The notes below the pieces were generated by a model. That model did not search any database and was not told the origin of the DNA. It was given only the letters and a program-made list of their open reading frames with translations. DNA of 45,712 nt from positions 1-45,712 of IMG/VR virus record IMGVR_UViG_3300025085_000047; one strand, written 5' to 3'. Shown here piece by piece: positions 40,373 to 45,712 of this stretch; within the stretch, counting starts at the first letter, position 1, and each line of letters opens with the position of its first letter. A program made the position numbers and the translations under genes. The stretch is from a virus.

Positions 40373-41353
40373 TTAAACTAGACTATTTGCAATCTTATTA
40401 GCGTCAAATATTTGACTAGGATTTTCATATTGACATTCATGAAGCGCTCCTGTAAAGCTGTAATCATATAGATATGAATCAACAGTACCTTCAAGAAATT
40501 CTTTTGAAGGTTTAATGTTGTTATGTAAATCATAGCCGAAAGTTTCTGGTTGTGTGGCCACCCACACAACAGTTGAAGGTAAGTTCATTGCAGCTGCAGC
40601 ATGCTGGAGAGAAGAATCAATTAAGAGTCTCTTTGTTGAGTAGAGTAAAAGCCCAAATAGAACTTTTTTAGGCATAGCAGCATCAACACGTTGTACGTTC
40701 TCTAACTGAGGGTGCAGGTCATAGCAAACGTGTACTATGTGATACCTATCATGTAGAGCGTTGACAATGTTTTGAGCGACAGTAGGGTGAATATCTCTAG
40801 TCCATGAATATGGAGTCTCTTGATGCTCTTTACCAGGACCGCCGAATGGTTGAATAAGAAGTACTGGCTTATTGGATGGGTTCTGGATAATCCTTCCAGC
40901 TTCTTCTTTCTCTCTAAAGTTTAATAATAACTCAGGTGTGGTATCCGCACGAGGTACATTAATTAAATCACACCAGGAATCAATAAGATGCTTCTTCTTT
41001 GTAATATGATTTGTTGTTTTATATGGTTCCTGTGAATGAATCTCGACATCCTGCTTATAAATGTAATCTTTATAAAAGTGAGGTGTGTTACCAATTCTAT
41101 AAACCCTATCAACATGAGGGTTATTAAGAAATACTTCAGGCCAAGCACATACTACAATAATATTATTTTCTGGTTTAGCTTTCTTGTATGATGCTATAAC
41201 AGCTGACGCTGCCACATGCTTACCTACCCCACCTTCCATATGAAAGATAGCATTCTTACCCACTAAGGTAGGCTTTACTTCTGCCACTTCAGCCTCTACT
41301 GCTTTAGTTTTAGCTACCTGCTTTTTTGTATTACTACTATTACGCTTGCTCAT
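40373..41353 (-). CDS. Glycosyltransferase family 9-like protein
   Basis: 326 aa with a GT-B layout. After a charged, Lys-rich leader the first domain starts KNAIFHMEGGVGKHVAASAV and contains NNIIVVCAWPEVFLNNPHVD, RVYRIGN, as in heptosyltransferases. The second starts PVLLIQPFGGPG and contains LLIDSSLQHAAAAMNLPSTV, VWVATQPETFGYD, the donor-site pattern of GT9. GT9 enzymes transfer heptose or related sugars from nucleotide donors to LPS core or other acceptors. The donor here is unknown. The sugar-nucleotide genes 2.5 kb downstream could supply it. It has its own terminator and sits between neck and fibre genes. Confidence 0.75.
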   Translation of the reverse strand: MSKRNSSNTKKQVAKTKAVEAEVAEVKPTLVGKNAIFHMEGGVGKHVAASAVIASYKKAKPENNIIVVCAWPEVFLNNPHVDRVYRIGNTPHFYKDYIYKQDVEIHSQEPYKTTNHITKKKHLIDSWCDLINVPRADTTPELLLNFREKEEAGRIIQNPSNKPVLLIQPFGGPGKEHQETPYSWTRDIHPTVAQNIVNALHDRYHIVHVCYDLHPQLENVQRVDAAMPKKVLFGLLLYSTKRLLIDSSLQHAAAAMNLPSTVVWVATQPETFGYDLHNNIKPSKEFLEGTVDSYLYDYSFTGALHECQYENPSQIFDANKIANSLV

Positions 41354-41405
41354 GTCTAATTAAACTATACTATAATTTACTTACAATATAGTGAAATTCA
41401 AGAGG

Positions 41406-42206
41406 CTAAGTCACAATTTTTAAATCAGAGCCGGATCTATATATTGATCCTACAGGTAATCCTGCACAACTGGTGGGTACATCAGTTATTATAAGCTTTT
41501 GTGTATAAGCCGTATCACTAGCAGTAGCATTAATACAACACCCAGCTAATATTGATGATGCAGAAACAGAAGGCGCTATTGTATTTTTTGCGCCAGCTAA
41601 AACAGAACTACTGTCACCACATACAGCATTATAACAACCGTTTACTACTGCACTACAATCACCACATGTTACATTATAATTTCCACCTCCAACGAATGAG
41701 GCAGTACCATTAGCGCATCCATAAAACCCACCTACAATAGAAGAATAACTACAACCTCCTGCCACAGTAGTTTCATAACCAGCATTAAGGTTGCTAGCAA
41801 TAATAGTACCTGAAACAGTTAAACCGCAAAAAGTAGGAGAGCTAGTAGATTGAAGATTTCTTGCATTTACAGTACTAGCTGCACCACCTACTGTTGTAAC
41901 TTTTACTTGACCTTGATTTGTGCCTTGCTCAACACAATTTATTACGTAACATCCATTTGCTGTACACCAAGCAGCCGCATTATCCCAACTCGTACAATTT
42001 GCCGATACATATATTCTAGTAGAATCCCATCCACCAGAAAGAGAAGAAAGTTCAGTTCTTGCTAGCATACCACCTACCCCAGTTAAAGGTGCAGCAAACG
42101 AGCTTAGCAGTGTTTGACTAGTTATAGAGTCTTGTACGACTGCCACGAGCTCGTTACCTGTGAGAGGAGAGGAAAATGTTGGTAATTCTGAAATCTTTAC
42201 ACCCAT
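41406..42206 (-). CDS. Cys-rich fibre protein with YadA-like head repeats
   Basis: 266 aa. The N-terminus (KISELPTFSSPLTGNELVAV) is a phage fibre attachment pattern. Residues about 155-225 contain repeats of the trimeric-adhesin head type: SSIVGGFYGCANGTASFVGG, GNYNVTCGDCSAVVNGCYNA, VCGDSSSVLAGAKN. Fourteen Cys residues occur, many at equivalent repeat positions, unlike the Cys-poor tail genes nearby. The end (LPVGSIYRSGSDLKIVT) is a common phage fibre terminus. ACTAAATA lies 5 nt before the ATG. Likely a trimeric appendage on head, neck or tail. Disulphides or metal binding are possible but unproven. Confidence 0.7.
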   Translation of the reverse strand: MGVKISELPTFSSPLTGNELVAVVQDSITSQTLLSSFAAPLTGVGGMLARTELSSLSGGWDSTRIYVSANCTSWDNAAAWCTANGCYVINCVEQGTNQGQVKVTTVGGAASTVNARNLQSTSSPTFCGLTVSGTIIASNLNAGYETTVAGGCSYSSIVGGFYGCANGTASFVGGGNYNVTCGDCSAVVNGCYNAVCGDSSSVLAGAKNTIAPSVSASSILAGCCINATASDTAYTQKLIITDVPTSCAGLPVGSIYRSGSDLKIVT

Positions 42207-42211
42207 ACCAT

Positions 42212-42219
42212 TATTTAGT
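42212..42219 (-). promoter_or_regulatory. Late-promoter-like motif ACTAAATA
   Basis: ACTAAATA on the minus strand, 5 nt before the fibre ATG at 42206. Confidence 0.5.
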
Positions 42220-42246
42220 TGATAGTCGTGAGTTTTATATTAAAAT

Positions 42247-42960
42247 ATGTTAATGTCTGCAAAAATTGTCAATTTCGATGAAGCGTCGCATACCTACACG
42301 CATAAAGATAAAGGTAAGTTTATTTCTGTAACTACTCTACTTGGTCAATATAAGAAGAAGTTTGATAAACACTTCCATGCATCGAGAGTAGCTGAACGAG
42401 AAGGTGTGTCGAAAGAGATGGTTCTTGAAATGTGGGAGAAGGAAAAGAATAAAGCTTGTGATAGGGGTACAAATATTCACAAACTACTTGAAGATTATAT
42501 TAGCTATGGTGATATGGAAGATAATTATAGCTGGCTTTATAAAACCTATAACAGGGCAGTAGATCGGCATATCGATAGACATGATAAGATTCATTGCGAG
42601 AGTTTATTATACAATGAGGACTATAACGTAGCTGGAATGGCTGATCTTATATTCGAACATAAGAAGGGTGAGTTCACAGTAGGAGATTTTAAGACTAATA
42701 AGAAGTTTAGGTTCAGCTCACCGTTTGGTGAACGAATGCTCGATCCTGTTGATCACTTACATACCTGCGAGTTTAATACGTACGCTCTACAATTGTCGAT
42801 GTATGCTTATATGCACGAGCAAATGACCGGTCAACGCTGCCGTAAGTGTGTCATCTTCTACCTACAAGAAGATAGATTTGTACCATATCACATTAACTAC
42901 CTTAAAGCGGATATTATTAATATCTTAAATGATTATAGAAAAACATCGTTGCTATCCTAA
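42247..42960 (+). CDS. PD-(D/E)XK superfamily nuclease
   Basis: 237 aa (a second ATG at 42253 would give 235 aa). The Cas4/RecB-type layout is visible: GTNIHKLLEDYI with His78, NVAGMADLIF with Asp133, FTVGDFKTNKK with Asp147 and Lys149, and ALQLSMYAYM with the Gln182-x3-Tyr186 motif. Glu119 in CESLLYN may also contribute. Such phage enzymes act as exonucleases in recombination, DNA processing or host DNA degradation. There is no Cys cluster at the C-terminus, so it is not a Cas4-type iron-sulphur enzyme. No late motif is seen upstream, so it may be expressed earlier than the virion genes. Confidence 0.82.
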   Translation: MLMSAKIVNFDEASHTYTHKDKGKFISVTTLLGQYKKKFDKHFHASRVAEREGVSKEMVLEMWEKEKNKACDRGTNIHKLLEDYISYGDMEDNYSWLYKTYNRAVDRHIDRHDKIHCESLLYNEDYNVAGMADLIFEHKKGEFTVGDFKTNKKFRFSSPFGERMLDPVDHLHTCEFNTYALQLSMYAYMHEQMTGQRCRKCVIFYLQEDRFVPYHINYLKADIINILNDYRKTSLLS

Positions 42961-42984
42961 TTACAGCAATAAATAGCTTTAAAT

Positions 42985-43203
42985 ATGAAAAAGTCTAAGC
43001 TTGTTAATAATTTAGATAAATCTATCGACGCTTTATATGATAGCCTTTATGCAGTAAGAGATGCATTAGAGAAGGTTGAGGATGAAGAGATGGATTTCTT
43101 AGCTAATAGTTTTGTAGATCAAATAGAACTTAGCGTTGTTGAGGGTGAGTATAATTATGAAAGAATTAAAGAGTATATTGAAAAACTCTATATAGAAGAG
43201 TAA
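42985..43203 (+). CDS. Hypothetical small acidic helical protein
   Basis: 72 aa, not recognised. Heptad-like hydrophobic spacing (LVNNLDKSIDALYDSLYAVR, DALEKVEDEEMDFLANSF) suggests a helical hairpin or coiled coil. AATAAATA lies 9 nt before the ATG. It is followed 8 bp later by a basic-protein gene in the same direction, whose promoter-like motif overlaps this gene's TAA stop. Confidence 0.6.
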   Translation: MKKSKLVNNLDKSIDALYDSLYAVRDALEKVEDEEMDFLANSFVDQIELSVVEGEYNYERIKEYIEKLYIEE

Positions 43204-43206
43204 ATA
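43199..43206 (+). promoter_or_regulatory. Late-promoter-like motif AGTAAATA
   Basis: AGTAAATA, 5 nt before the GTG at 43212, overlapping the stop codon of the preceding gene. Confidence 0.45.
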
Positions 43207-43211
43207 TTTAC

Positions 43212-43577
43212 GTGAAAGATTTTAAGTCATTTTACGTTGAAAACTTTGCCGACGGTAAAAAGAAGGGTAAGAGCCGCCCTGGACGTGTTAAGAAGTCAGG
43301 GGCTAGTTGTAATGGTTCAGTGACAGAGCTTCGTAAGAAAGCAAAAAACGCTAGTGGTGAGAAAGCGAAGATGTATCACTGGTGTGCAAACATGAAGGGT
43401 GGTAAGCGAAAGAAGTCTGAGTCTGAAGAGGTGCCTGAAGAAGATGCTGAAAAGAAGGTATCTAAGACTCGCGCTAAATGTCAAGCTAAAGCTAAGCGTA
43501 AATATGATGTATGGCCTTCTGCTTATGCATCAGGCTATGTTCAGAAATGTGTAAACAGAGGCGGTAAAATAAAATGA
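43212..43577 (+). CDS. Basic phage protein with YxVWPSAYASG motif
   Basis: 121 aa, GTG start. Two small basic units are seen: ASCNGSVTELRKKAKNASGE, KAKMYHWCANMKGGKRKK, and after an acidic spacer CQAKAKRKYDVWPSAYASGY, VQKCVNRGGK. The KYxVWPSAYASG...KC motif is widespread in uncharacterised proteins of marine tailed phages and giant viruses. The N-terminus MKDFKSFYVENF resembles capsid-targeting sequences. Positive charge and Cys pairs suggest DNA contact or a packaged protein. Stop TGA overlaps the next start (ATGA). Confidence 0.7.
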   Translation: MKDFKSFYVENFADGKKKGKSRPGRVKKSGASCNGSVTELRKKAKNASGEKAKMYHWCANMKGGKRKKSESEEVPEEDAEKKVSKTRAKCQAKAKRKYDVWPSAYASGYVQKCVNRGGKIK

Positions 43578-43825
43578 CTCAAAAAGAATTGTTAGAGAAC
43601 TTACGAGACTGGTTTAAGACTAGGACAGATAAGAAGACTGGTAAGAAGTTTAAAGGATGGGTCAACTGTAAAACCGGTGGGCCTTGTGGTAGAAAGAAAG
43701 CAGGTAAGAAAGGCTCTTCATACCCTGCTTGTAGGTCGTCACACGCTGCGTGTAAGAAGATAAAGAACAAAAAATATAAGAAACGCGGTCCGAAAAGACA
43801 ACAATGGAAGAAGAAAAGCAGTTGA
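43574..43825 (+). CDS. Lys/Cys-rich small basic protein
   Basis: 83 aa. After a helical start (MTQKELLENLRDWFKTRTDK) comes FKGWVNCKTGGPCGRKKAGK, then YPACRSSHAACKKIKNKK and a Lys/Arg-rich end. I recall this WVxCxTGGPCGRxxxxxxxYPxCR pattern from uncharacterised phage proteins encoded near the VWPSAYASG type. Four Cys spaced as C-x5-C and C-x6-C could bind metal. It is translationally coupled to the preceding gene by an ATGA overlap, so the two probably work together. Function unknown. Confidence 0.7.
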   Translation: MTQKELLENLRDWFKTRTDKKTGKKFKGWVNCKTGGPCGRKKAGKKGSSYPACRSSHAACKKIKNKKYKKRGPKRQQWKKKSS

Positions 43826-43856
43826 TTATACTACCGTTCCATGTTAATATTTATAT

Positions 43857-44702
43857 ATGAATATTTGCATCTTGGGTGGTGGTTACGTAGGAACTCATTT
43901 AAGTAATAGTTTAAAGAGCGATCATAACGTTACAGTCTTACGTCGCGACGATCTAGATTATAATAAGCAGTATAAGTTACTAGCCTTCTTATCCAAAAGT
44001 AATATTGACTACGTTATTAACTGCTCAGGCTTTACAGGCCGGCCTAATGTTGATCAAGCAGAAGATAAAAAGAAAGAGTGTTGGGATCTAAATGTACTTG
44101 GGCCGGTAAATGTAAATAGAGTCTGTAAAGCAGCACAAATTCCATACATTCATATTTCGTCTGGTTGTATCTTTACAGGTTATGAAAAGGAATGGTTAGA
44201 GGAAGATGAGCCTAACTATGGGTTGTTTGATATTGAGTCATCTTTCTACTCTAAATCAAAGCATGCATATGAATTAGCAGCTGGTGATTATGGCTTAACT
44301 ATAAGGATCCGGATGCCGTTTGATAATGATATTACATCAGAAAGATCTGTTTTATCAAAGCTCCGTAAGTATGATAACCTAGTTAATTTTAAGAACTCTA
44401 AAACGTATATACCAGATTTATGTAGGTTCATTAAGAAGTATGTTGAAGAAGCTAGGAGTGATAATGATGTACTTCACCTCGTTAATCCAGATGCTCTAGA
44501 TACGGCTGGTGTTATAGAGTTTATGAAAGCAGCAGATAAAGGTAACCCTAATTGGAAGTTTGTAGACTTCGCTGCTCTTAATACTAAAGCCAACAGATCT
44601 AATTGCACATTAGATGTTACTAAGCTTAAAGAAAAATATGATTTTGAACCAATGACTGAGTCAGATGCACTCGCGCTAATATATGAAAAGCCCTCTGTAT
44701 AA
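43857..44702 (+). CDS. RmlD-like NAD(P)-dependent sugar reductase/epimerase
   Basis: 281 aa extended short-chain dehydrogenase. The Rossmann motif is GGGYVGTHL (7-15), the catalytic Ser lies in HISSGCIFTG (101/102) and the YxxxK pair is Tyr131 and Lys135 in YSKSK. The middle (NCSGFTGRPNVDQAEDKKKE, CWDLNVLGPVNVNRVCKAAQ) is close to dTDP-4-dehydrorhamnose reductases, though the C-terminal substrate domain is short. It would reduce or epimerise a nucleotide-linked 4-keto sugar. Overlaps the next gene by 20 bp, and an RmlB-like gene follows, so a deoxysugar pathway is likely. Product sugar unknown. Confidence 0.8.
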   Translation: MNICILGGGYVGTHLSNSLKSDHNVTVLRRDDLDYNKQYKLLAFLSKSNIDYVINCSGFTGRPNVDQAEDKKKECWDLNVLGPVNVNRVCKAAQIPYIHISSGCIFTGYEKEWLEEDEPNYGLFDIESSFYSKSKHAYELAAGDYGLTIRIRMPFDNDITSERSVLSKLRKYDNLVNFKNSKTYIPDLCRFIKKYVEEARSDNDVLHLVNPDALDTAGVIEFMKAADKGNPNWKFVDFAALNTKANRSNCTLDVTKLKEKYDFEPMTESDALALIYEKPSV

Positions 44703-45162
44703 TAAGATTAAGAATAATTCCCCTGGTAAAATAATTACAAGCTTTACTGCAGGTAACTTCGATTTACTTCATCCTGGCTATATCTACACCTTTGAAGAAG
44801 CTAAAAGGCATAGTGATAAGTTCATTGTATTCTTACAGAAGGATCCATCATCAACTCGTTACACAAAATATAAACCAGTCATACCGTACTATGAGAGGTA
44901 CAAGACATTAATGGCTATCAAGTATATTGATGAGGTATATATGTATCAAACAGAAGATGAGCTTGTAGACTTAATTAAGTTCTTTAACCCAGACGTTCGT
45001 ATATTAGGAGAAGATTATATTGGTAAGCCTTTTACAGGTGATGATCTGCCTCCAGAAGTAGTGTATACAACTAGATCACATGAATGGTCTACGACAAAGA
45101 TAAAGGATCTTATTACCTTGCAAACCATAAAACAGAATCCAAAATTATTAGAGAATGAGTAA
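44683..45162 (+). CDS. Cytidylyltransferase-like nucleotidyltransferase
   Basis: 159 aa. The N-terminus has the nucleotide-binding motif of the HxGH superfamily in altered form, FTAGNFDLLHPGYIYTFEEA (residues 21-40; HPGY instead of HxGH). The C-terminal signature is STTKIKDLI (136-144; usually SSTxI). This fits glycerol-3-phosphate cytidylyltransferase or the RfaE/HldE nucleotidyl domain, which make CDP-glycerol or ADP-heptose. ADP-heptose would suit the GT9-type transferase in this window, but the second His is replaced by Tyr, so activity needs proof. Overlaps genes on both sides (20 bp and 8 bp). Confidence 0.7.
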   Translation: MKSPLYNKIKNNSPGKIITSFTAGNFDLLHPGYIYTFEEAKRHSDKFIVFLQKDPSSTRYTKYKPVIPYYERYKTLMAIKYIDEVYMYQTEDELVDLIKFFNPDVRILGEDYIGKPFTGDDLPPEVVYTTRSHEWSTTKIKDLITLQTIKQNPKLLENE

Positions 45163-45712
45163 GACGTATTTAGTTACAGGAGGATGCGGCTTTATTGGCT
45201 CGTATGTTATAGAAGAGTTACTTAAGGATAAAGACGCTGACATAGAAGTCATATGCGTAGATAAGATGGGTGTAGGTTCTGATCTTAAACACATACCGTT
45301 GAACGATGATAGATTAAAGCATATAGTGAGAGATATATCGAGCTCGAGCTTTACAGAGTTCATAGGGAAGGTAGATTATATATTACATCTAGCTGCTGAG
45401 TCGCACGTAGATAGATCCATTACTAACCCGTTAGCGTTTATTGATAGTAACGTTGTAGGTACAGCAAATGTCCTTGAGCTATGCAAGCAGGACCATGCTA
45501 GAATGGTTCACGTCTCAACTGATGAAGTGTATGGCCATTTACAGCTAGACGAGGAGCCCTTTACTGAAGAGCATCCTCTTAAGCCCCGCTCCCCGTACTC
45601 AGCATCTAAAGCTAGCTCTGATCTACTAGTACAATCTTATATTACAACATTCGGGATTAATGCATCTATAACAAGATGTTGTAATAATTATGGACCAAGG
45701 CAACATAACGAG
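45155..45712 (+). CDS. RmlB-like dTDP-glucose 4,6-dehydratase (3' end outside window)
   Basis: 186 residues visible from the ATG at 45155, which overlaps the preceding stop. The Rossmann motif is VTGGCGFIGSYV. LHLAAESHVDRSITNP is the classic RmlB stretch. The catalytic Thr-Asp-Glu triad is at 122-124 in STDEVYG, and Tyr148/Lys152 lie in SPYSASKASSD. NNYGPRQ fits the substrate loop. These enzymes convert dTDP-glucose (or a related NDP-sugar) to the 4-keto-6-deoxy form, the first committed step to rhamnose and other deoxysugars. With the RmlD-like gene upstream it makes a plausible two-step route. Confidence 0.9.
   Translation, partial: MSKTYLVTGGCGFIGSYVIEELLKDKDADIEVICVDKMGVGSDLKHIPLNDDRLKHIVRDISSSSFTEFIGKVDYILHLAAESHVDRSITNPLAFIDSNVVGTANVLELCKQDHARMVHVSTDEVYGHLQLDEEPFTEEHPLKPRSPYSASKASSDLLVQSYITTFGINASITRCCNNYGPRQHNE

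Follow-up and report, generated by a model that had tools for sequence, protein, structure and literature searches.

A putative L-rhamnose donor cassette with a TagD-fold protein possibly in place of RmlA, and a candidate fibre glycosyltransferase, in a T4-like marine phage

We studied a putative sugar-donor cassette at the right end of the viral record IMGVR_UViG_3300025085_000047, a T4-like myovirus by terminase comparison, which was analysed over its full 45.7 kb (positions 1 to 45,712, here called the window). Three genes on the positive strand make up the cassette: an NRS/ER-type 3,5-epimerase/4-reductase (RmlD-like, 281 aa, 43857..44702), a cytidylyltransferase-like (CTL) protein of the TagD fold in which HPGY replaces the HxGH motif (159 aa, 44683..45162), and an RmlB-like nucleoside diphosphate (NDP)-glucose 4,6-dehydratase (186 aa in the window and open at its end, 45155..45712+). 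In the pathway that we propose, the RmlB-like enzyme would dehydrate NDP-glucose to NDP-4-keto-6-deoxyglucose, and the NRS/ER-type enzyme would epimerise C3 and C5 and reduce C4 to give NDP-L-rhamnose; no RmlC would be needed, since this enzyme would perform both epimerisation and reduction. The CTL protein would supply the NDP-sugar to the dehydratase, i.e., the task of RmlA, and a protein with a GT9 fold encoded nearby would move the sugar onto a phage fibre as TibC does on the adhesin TibA, this being the weakest step. The basis of all these readings is sequence comparison, structure prediction and gene order, and we give the whole account, with the CTL protein as RmlA and the fibre as target of the GT9-fold transferase, a probability of about 0.5. 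For the product, homology and active-site residues make NDP-L-rhamnose the probable one, with the activity predicted. An earlier note on this DNA, made from the sequence alone, had proposed a deoxysugar or heptose donor with a possible transferase nearby; the donor pathway was supported and its product is here narrowed to NDP-L-rhamnose.

The first gene product belonged to the Pfam family RmlD_sub_bind (6.6e-24), but it missed the cut-off of the RmlD family TIGR01214 (70.7 vs 224.05 bits). A profile built from 28 of its relatives (A3) matched the Arabidopsis 3,5-epimerase/4-reductase 4qqr at 9.3e-48 and the mimivirus uridine diphosphate (UDP)-L-rhamnose synthase 7jid at 8.4e-34, against 1.1e-13 for the best RmlD; for the window's single protein the respective values were 6.1e-24, 6.7e-11 and 2.4e-6. 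In an alignment of 73 rows, from which short or low-scoring phage open reading frames (ORFs) and the bacterial locus L102 had been dropped by length and score, Cys115, Tyr144, Lys148 and Lys183 (4qqr numbering) were present in 52/52 phage sequences and in both references. The 15 bacterial homologues all had the Cys and both Lys, and 14 of them the Tyr. Four RmlD sequences presented Tyr at the place of Cys115 and, at the place of Lys183, Thr in three and Lys in one; Cys115 and Lys183 were reportedly assigned their roles in the epimerase reaction by Han in 2015. The RmlD sequences were split (100/100) in the tree from the phage, bacterial and plant/mimivirus sequences, at a point where, as the program warns, long branches meet. 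An RmlD identity was rejected on the TIGR01214 score and on the Cys found where the four RmlD have Tyr. The first gene product is thus an NRS/ER-type (UGER) epimerase/reductase with predicted activities; the RmlD-like reductase of the earlier note holds at the level of the Pfam family and gives way to the NRS/ER type by profile and residues.

Bacterial homologues of this gene were found at 16 loci, 14 of them from Verrucomicrobia or Planctomycetes according to the record titles, and an rmlB-like gene was also present at 8/16; the four bacterial homologues given in the accessible part of Yin et al. 2011 (PMC3220709) were every one from Verrucomicrobia. A tblastn search of 50,697 phage records with the window's gene matched 7, at no more than 30% identity, and the two of these that were read both carried the RmlD motif. 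NRS/ER was present in 2/20 mixed records (10 from a terminase-chosen background sample consisting mostly of short contigs, 5 named phages and 5 GT9 records). Upstream of NRS/ER, a gene of the IMP dehydrogenase/GMP reductase family was seen at L031:6103-7140, and the gene at L202:6534-7574 starts alike.

The dehydratase gene, which matched GDP_Man_Dehyd (6.2e-50), was complete in a nearly identical contig (L003:7113-8078, 321 aa). Its nearest solved chains were the deoxythymidine diphosphate (dTDP)-glucose 4,6-dehydratases 2hun, 6bi4 and 1r66, and mimivirus R141 (6vlo) ranked tenth. T122 D123 E124, Y148 and K152 were invariant across 25 rows, matching [ST]DE and Yx3K, which the available portion of one paper gives as the signature of dTDP/UDP-glucose 4,6-dehydratases (PMC8987622). 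Also invariant (25/25 rows) was Tyr205, the equivalent of the base-stacking Tyr208 of the S. venezuelae enzyme (1r66); this position holds His in eukaryotic enzymes and Gln in mimivirus, according to the accessible text of another (PMC9741107). As the Tyr of the bacterial dTDP enzymes is kept, the cassette nucleotide is more likely dTDP than UDP, and the same residue suggests that a dehydratase of bacterial type is combined here with an epimerase/reductase resembling those of eukaryotes and giant viruses.

The middle gene product matched CTP_transf_like (1.5e-14), and its structural model (predicted local distance difference test, pLDDT, 83.8) had the TagD fold, with 2b7l found by Foldseek at E 1.7e-9 and a template modelling score of 0.85 of the target. 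It remained below curated cut-offs, scoring 64.5 vs 165.4 bits with TagD TIGR01518 and 62.2 bits with rfaE_dom_II. The scan for relatives retained the best 80 of 158, and the motif was read in 73 distinct sequences plus the window's own, giving HPGY in 62, HSGH in 9, and HTGH, HMGH and HYGY in 1 each. The 11 HxGH rows scored 26-82 bits against the window's CTL and every other row at least 250 bits; in all 62 close distinct CTL sequences the place of the second His was taken by Tyr. Tyr33 was invariant in 50 chosen rows, 69-98% identical, and a WSTTK motif was also conserved. A decayed site was rejected on this conservation among close relatives, which gives no sign of a dead enzyme, and the idea of the earlier note that the HPGY change might be inactivating lost its ground.

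Of 93 phage records matched by the CTL search, the motif was read in six: CRP-6, 150E35-1, Cr30, P-TIM68 and S-SM2 had HxGH, and SynMITS9220M01 had HPGY. In the latter, a cultured Synechococcus phage, the HPGY CTL follows a HAD-like part within one protein annotated as hypothetical (L105:2659-3411). A scan of genome_contigs for a bacterial source of CTL matched 26 stretches and no relatives, within the limits set by its short search patterns. Neighbours within four genes were recorded for 53 distinct CTL genes with at least 2 ORFs on each side: a strong RmlB was present for 44, NRS/ER for 34 and both for 33. Variants of the cassette were also seen. Nine loci had a four-gene form with an extra short-chain dehydrogenase/reductase (SDR) between CTL and RmlB (L024, where it is of the Epimerase family, and L025, L026, L034, L036, L049, L056, L060 and L063), so another sugar may be made there. 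At L035:8435-10161 the two genes were separated by a PNP_UDP_1 phosphorylase and a protein of the IF-2B family, which we take to be that of methylthioribose-1-phosphate isomerase; the insert may serve nucleoside salvage. One phage record of 194 kb had CTL, RmlB and NRS/ER in a single stretch (L052:2550-13092) along with genes for UDP-galactopyranose mutase, sulfotransferases and a Glyco_transf_34 protein.

The role proposed for CTL comes from the slot that it occupies. The best 80 of 151 relatives of the GT9-fold protein were fetched with their loci, and 42 records were carried into further searches. NRS/ER was present in 17 of these, CTL in 8 with strong and 1 with weak matches, and the RmlA family (PF00483) in 4; CTL and RmlA occurred together in none of the 42. 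All 8 strong CTL genes adjoined the NRS/ER gene. The 4 RmlA genes, from syntenic phages (L196-L199), all lay between NRS/ER and RmlB, where CTL otherwise sits. Five of the records had NRS/ER with neither CTL nor RmlA, and in two of these five (L200 and L201) NRS/ER adjoined RmlB directly. Over all loci, a strong RmlB could be reached along the contig from 41 of 52 distinct NRS/ER genes (the contig ended first in 7, and none was within reach in 4); the interval held CTL in 35, RmlA in 4 and nothing in 2, shares that are biased because most loci were fetched with CTL. The non-overlap of CTL and RmlA among the 17 had a chance of 0.053 and the RmlA-bearing cassettes formed one clade of the NRS/ER tree, which together point to one exchange event, in either direction. 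The RmlA family was present in 1/20 CTL-bearing records; the RmlC family was present in 1/20 of these and 0/42 GT9-bearing records, many of the searched records being fragments, and in the exception (G017/L062) NRS/ER was absent from the four-gene neighbourhood of CTL. Because RmlA takes the same slot in syntenic phages, CTL probably makes an NDP-sugar. That it stands in for RmlA itself, the simplest interpretation of its position, comes slightly short of an even chance. The stronger proposal is doubtful: that CTL represents a new class of sugar-1-phosphate nucleotidyltransferase (TagD fold, Tyr for the second His) making NDP-glucose from glucose 1-phosphate in place of RmlA, whose fold is unrelated; the three overlapping genes would then lead from glucose 1-phosphate to activated L-rhamnose, with the fibre rhamnosylated through the GT9-fold enzyme.

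The candidate transferase is a GT9-fold glycosyltransferase-like protein of 326 aa (40373..41353, negative strand), a separate unit on the opposite strand and 2.5 kb from the cassette. It matched no Pfam family at 0.001 and no NCBIfam family, only phrog_8954 (no assigned function); a PDB sequence match was at chance level (0.34) and was discarded. The fold nearest to its model (pLDDT 66.2) was 3tov (Z 19.7, root mean square deviation 3.9, 276 aligned), and WaaC (Z 16.8), WaaF (16.6) and TibC (about 14) were also near, as were two chloroplast NDH-PSI chains (about 17). The GT9-type transferase of the earlier note is therefore backed by predicted fold, nearest to GT9 structures, and not by Pfam or NCBIfam. 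The first loop of the family reads EGGxGK, with the Lys in 98% of 58 distinct relatives, and its motifs are conserved. Directly upstream, on the same strand, lies a gene for a fibre-type protein of 266 aa (41406..42206), so called by eye from its sequence and with no Pfam or PHROG match; it is the candidate acceptor, and its Ser+Thr share (0.241) was the highest of the 34 window proteins examined, the runner-up having 0.224. We compared 76 GT9 loci that lay clear of contig edges, counting near-copies. The search placed a fibre-type gene immediately upstream, in the same orientation, in 49; 15 more had an ORF there which by eye carried a fibre N-terminal motif (9) or was fibre-like (6), and 12 had another arrangement. 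GT9 was found in 7/20 CTL-bearing records, each with the NRS/ER cassette. A precedent is TibC, a GT9-like enzyme which heptosylates the adhesin TibA, as stated in the consulted section of its report (PMC4358343). Because most GT9-fold genes stand directly behind a fibre-type gene, the sugar may go to the fibre and not to the host lipopolysaccharide (LPS), and position leans towards the virion, the second target suggested in the earlier note; the fibre as acceptor of the sugar is a tentative assignment, with odds a little under even.

Several observations weigh against the account as a whole. The Lys of the GT9-fold family appears to stand where WaaC has its catalytic Asp (placed by eye), the family occurs without NRS/ER in AG-345-L05 (149 kb) and in record G030 (L286, 87 kb), and a GT9 search of the NRS/ER records L039, L046, L052 and L072 found none. 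The complete L003 dehydratase scored 331.4 bits with the TIGR01181 equivalog and did not reach the cut-off of 365.1. CTL had RmlB alone as neighbour in 11/53 cases and neither gene in 8/53, so its product may be more general, and the HPGY CTL of SynMITS9220M01 sits among heptose genes.

These points leave room for other readings, of which two carry appreciable though minor weight. The same rhamnose donor could serve host LPS or another surface glycan, altering adsorption or blocking superinfection. LPS-acting GT9 enzymes (WaaC, WaaF) are among the nearest folds, the L052 cassette genes run with UDP-galactopyranose mutase, sulfotransferase and glycosyltransferase genes, and a pelagimyophage survey, in its accessible part, gives this interpretation to its LPS genes, which comprise rfaE, UDP-glucose dehydrogenase and glycosyltransferases (PMC7029224). 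The position of the GT9-fold gene behind the fibre-type gene in most loci speaks for the virion, however, and the surroundings of the window's cassette showed no O-antigen ligase, no flippase and no second transferase; we consider host glycan a rather unlikely target. Comparable weight goes to a CTL that is unrelated to the pathway or catalytically dead (e.g., of CDP-glycerol type) and merely travels with the cassette, NDP-glucose coming from the host: the HxGH motif, whose second His is replaced in CTL, is characteristic of the fold, and L200 and L201 lack a gene between NRS/ER and RmlB. The 69-98% identity over 50 rows, the invariant Tyr, the conserved WSTTK and the exchange of RmlA for CTL in one slot argue otherwise.

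Less probable still is an NDP-6-deoxy-heptose cassette, in which CTL would act on heptose 1-phosphate like HldE/HldC and the two SDR enzymes would then modify the heptose. CTL scores nearly as high with rfaE_dom_II as with TagD, GT9 enzymes are mostly heptosyltransferases, and heptose kinase and isomerase genes lie beside the SynMITS9220M01 CTL; against this, the RmlB is nearest to dTDP-glucose dehydratases and a glucose enzyme, RmlA, takes the CTL slot in relatives. The GmhA family was above cut-off in 0/23, by a search that is insensitive, since two cultured phages with annotated phosphoheptose isomerases gave nothing and a third a weak match. Sugar addition to phage DNA as a hypermodification is improbable to a further degree: one cassette (L015) has an SSB-like gene on one side and exonuclease and primase genes on the other, and that of the window follows an exonuclease gene, but the thymidylate synthase/dCMP hydroxymethylase family was found in 0/20 CTL-bearing records, the only base-modification family searched. 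In a separate count, TATAAATA occurred 12 times vs 11.85 expected, which gives no signal. Equally remote is a first gene that is an ordinary RmlD-like 4-reductase without epimerase activity, yielding a D-sugar such as dTDP-fucose; it has the Pfam name on its side, and the TIGR01214 score and the Cys of NRS/ER and all 52 phage sequences against it.

Among the known systems closest to the proposed rhamnose cassette is that of mimivirus, whose R141 (UGD) and L780 (UGER) form a virus-encoded UDP-L-rhamnose pathway (PMC9614988, as far as its text was available). Like the route proposed for the phage, it is virus-encoded and uses two enzymes, and L780 shares its family with the product of the first cassette gene. 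Mimivirus, however, infects amoebae, its R141 lies in a cluster and L780 elsewhere, not adjacent, and no CTL is described for the pathway in the accessible text of that paper (PMC9614988); in its dehydratase, Gln takes the position of the phage Tyr (PMC9741107, in part). The plant and fungal NRS/ER and RHM enzymes share the bifunctional epimerase/reductase with Cys115, Tyr144, Lys148 and Lys183 (4qqr), but they are eukaryotic, prefer UDP and have another base-stacking residue in the dehydratase, by the accessible parts of two papers (PMC6556577, PMC3220709). Phage-encoded rhamnose donor genes are known from annotation: Escherichia phage phiWec188 has genes labelled RmlB, RmlA, RmlC and RmlD-like oxidoreductase, and the order is the same in Pseudomonas phage PsgM04F. 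These are classical bacterial enzymes, with a separate RmlC, a true RmlD (STDYVF) and the RmlA fold instead of CTL. CTL has the fold and most motifs of TagD (glycerol-3-phosphate cytidylyltransferase) and HldE/HldC, and differs in HPGY for HxGH, in missing the curated cut-offs and in its link to RmlB. TibC resembles the GT9-fold protein in predicted fold and has a surface adhesin as acceptor; their identity is about 10%, the likeness being fold-based. LPS-related genes including rfaE have been described in pelagimyophages (PMC7029224, in the portion available).

The titles and abstracts listed by literature searches yielded no NRS/ER in a tailed phage, no phage UDP-rhamnose and no description of an enzyme with the TagD fold at the position of RmlA, subscription papers being mostly outside the search. 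Routine annotation of the cassette would give RmlD, TagD and RmlB; the present reading names a definite product, L-rhamnose, for a cassette found repeatedly in ocean phages. On this reading, tailed phages and some Verrucomicrobia and Planctomycetes would join plants, fungi and giant viruses as carriers of the two-step rhamnose route, a point relevant to the question of its origin. If CTL does replace RmlA, it would be an exception both to the HxGH rule and to the rule on the fold of glucose 1-phosphate nucleotidyltransferases, and the fibre link brings up virion glycosylation in T4-like marine phages.

The window's terminase shared 32-38% identity with its counterparts in AG-345-L05, Pelagibacter phage HTVC008M, Prochlorococcus phage P-TIM68, Synechococcus phage S-SSM7 and Sinorhizobium phage phiM9. 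The four genes lie where the earlier note had put them, as confirmed by ORF calls and, for the three cassette genes, by families, and its description of the last three as one unit with overlapping ends agrees with overlaps of 20 and then 8 bases. Many other viral contigs show the same order of genes, which argues that the arrangement is not due to chance. The GT9-fold gene and the cassette are separated by the fibre-type gene, an exonuclease-like gene (42247..42960, positive strand; phrog_298 exonuclease, 1.8e-40), which is context and not part of the pathway, and three small genes. The note also had the cluster continue beyond the window, which was not borne out in four related contigs that extend past its end (L003, L005, L006 and L007): there, nothing of the cluster followed except the remainder of rmlB (329 aa in L005 and 321 aa in the other three), and the next gene ran in the opposite direction (220 aa as called in L003 and 163 aa in the other three), with no PHROG match where scanned in this set.

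Other features of the surroundings were recorded. The gene upstream of the cassette varies in length through a KLAGKAAL-like repeat insert, with 121 aa in the window (43212-43577), 171 in L006 (3512-4027) and 182 in L007 (4109-4657). Just past the cassette, L006:7105-7563 and its equivalents in L003, L005 and L007 code for a small protein with a membrane-like N-terminus, whose MORN_2 match was weak (20.8 bits, below the cut-off of 29.6). Further downstream, a gene of about 260 aa (L003:10658-11443, L005:12867-13649, L006:9151-9936) appeared by eye to code for a secreted outer-membrane beta-barrel with a signal peptide. At L015:3495-11047 the cassette was located inside a replication module, flanked by the genes for an SSB-like protein and for exonuclease and primase.

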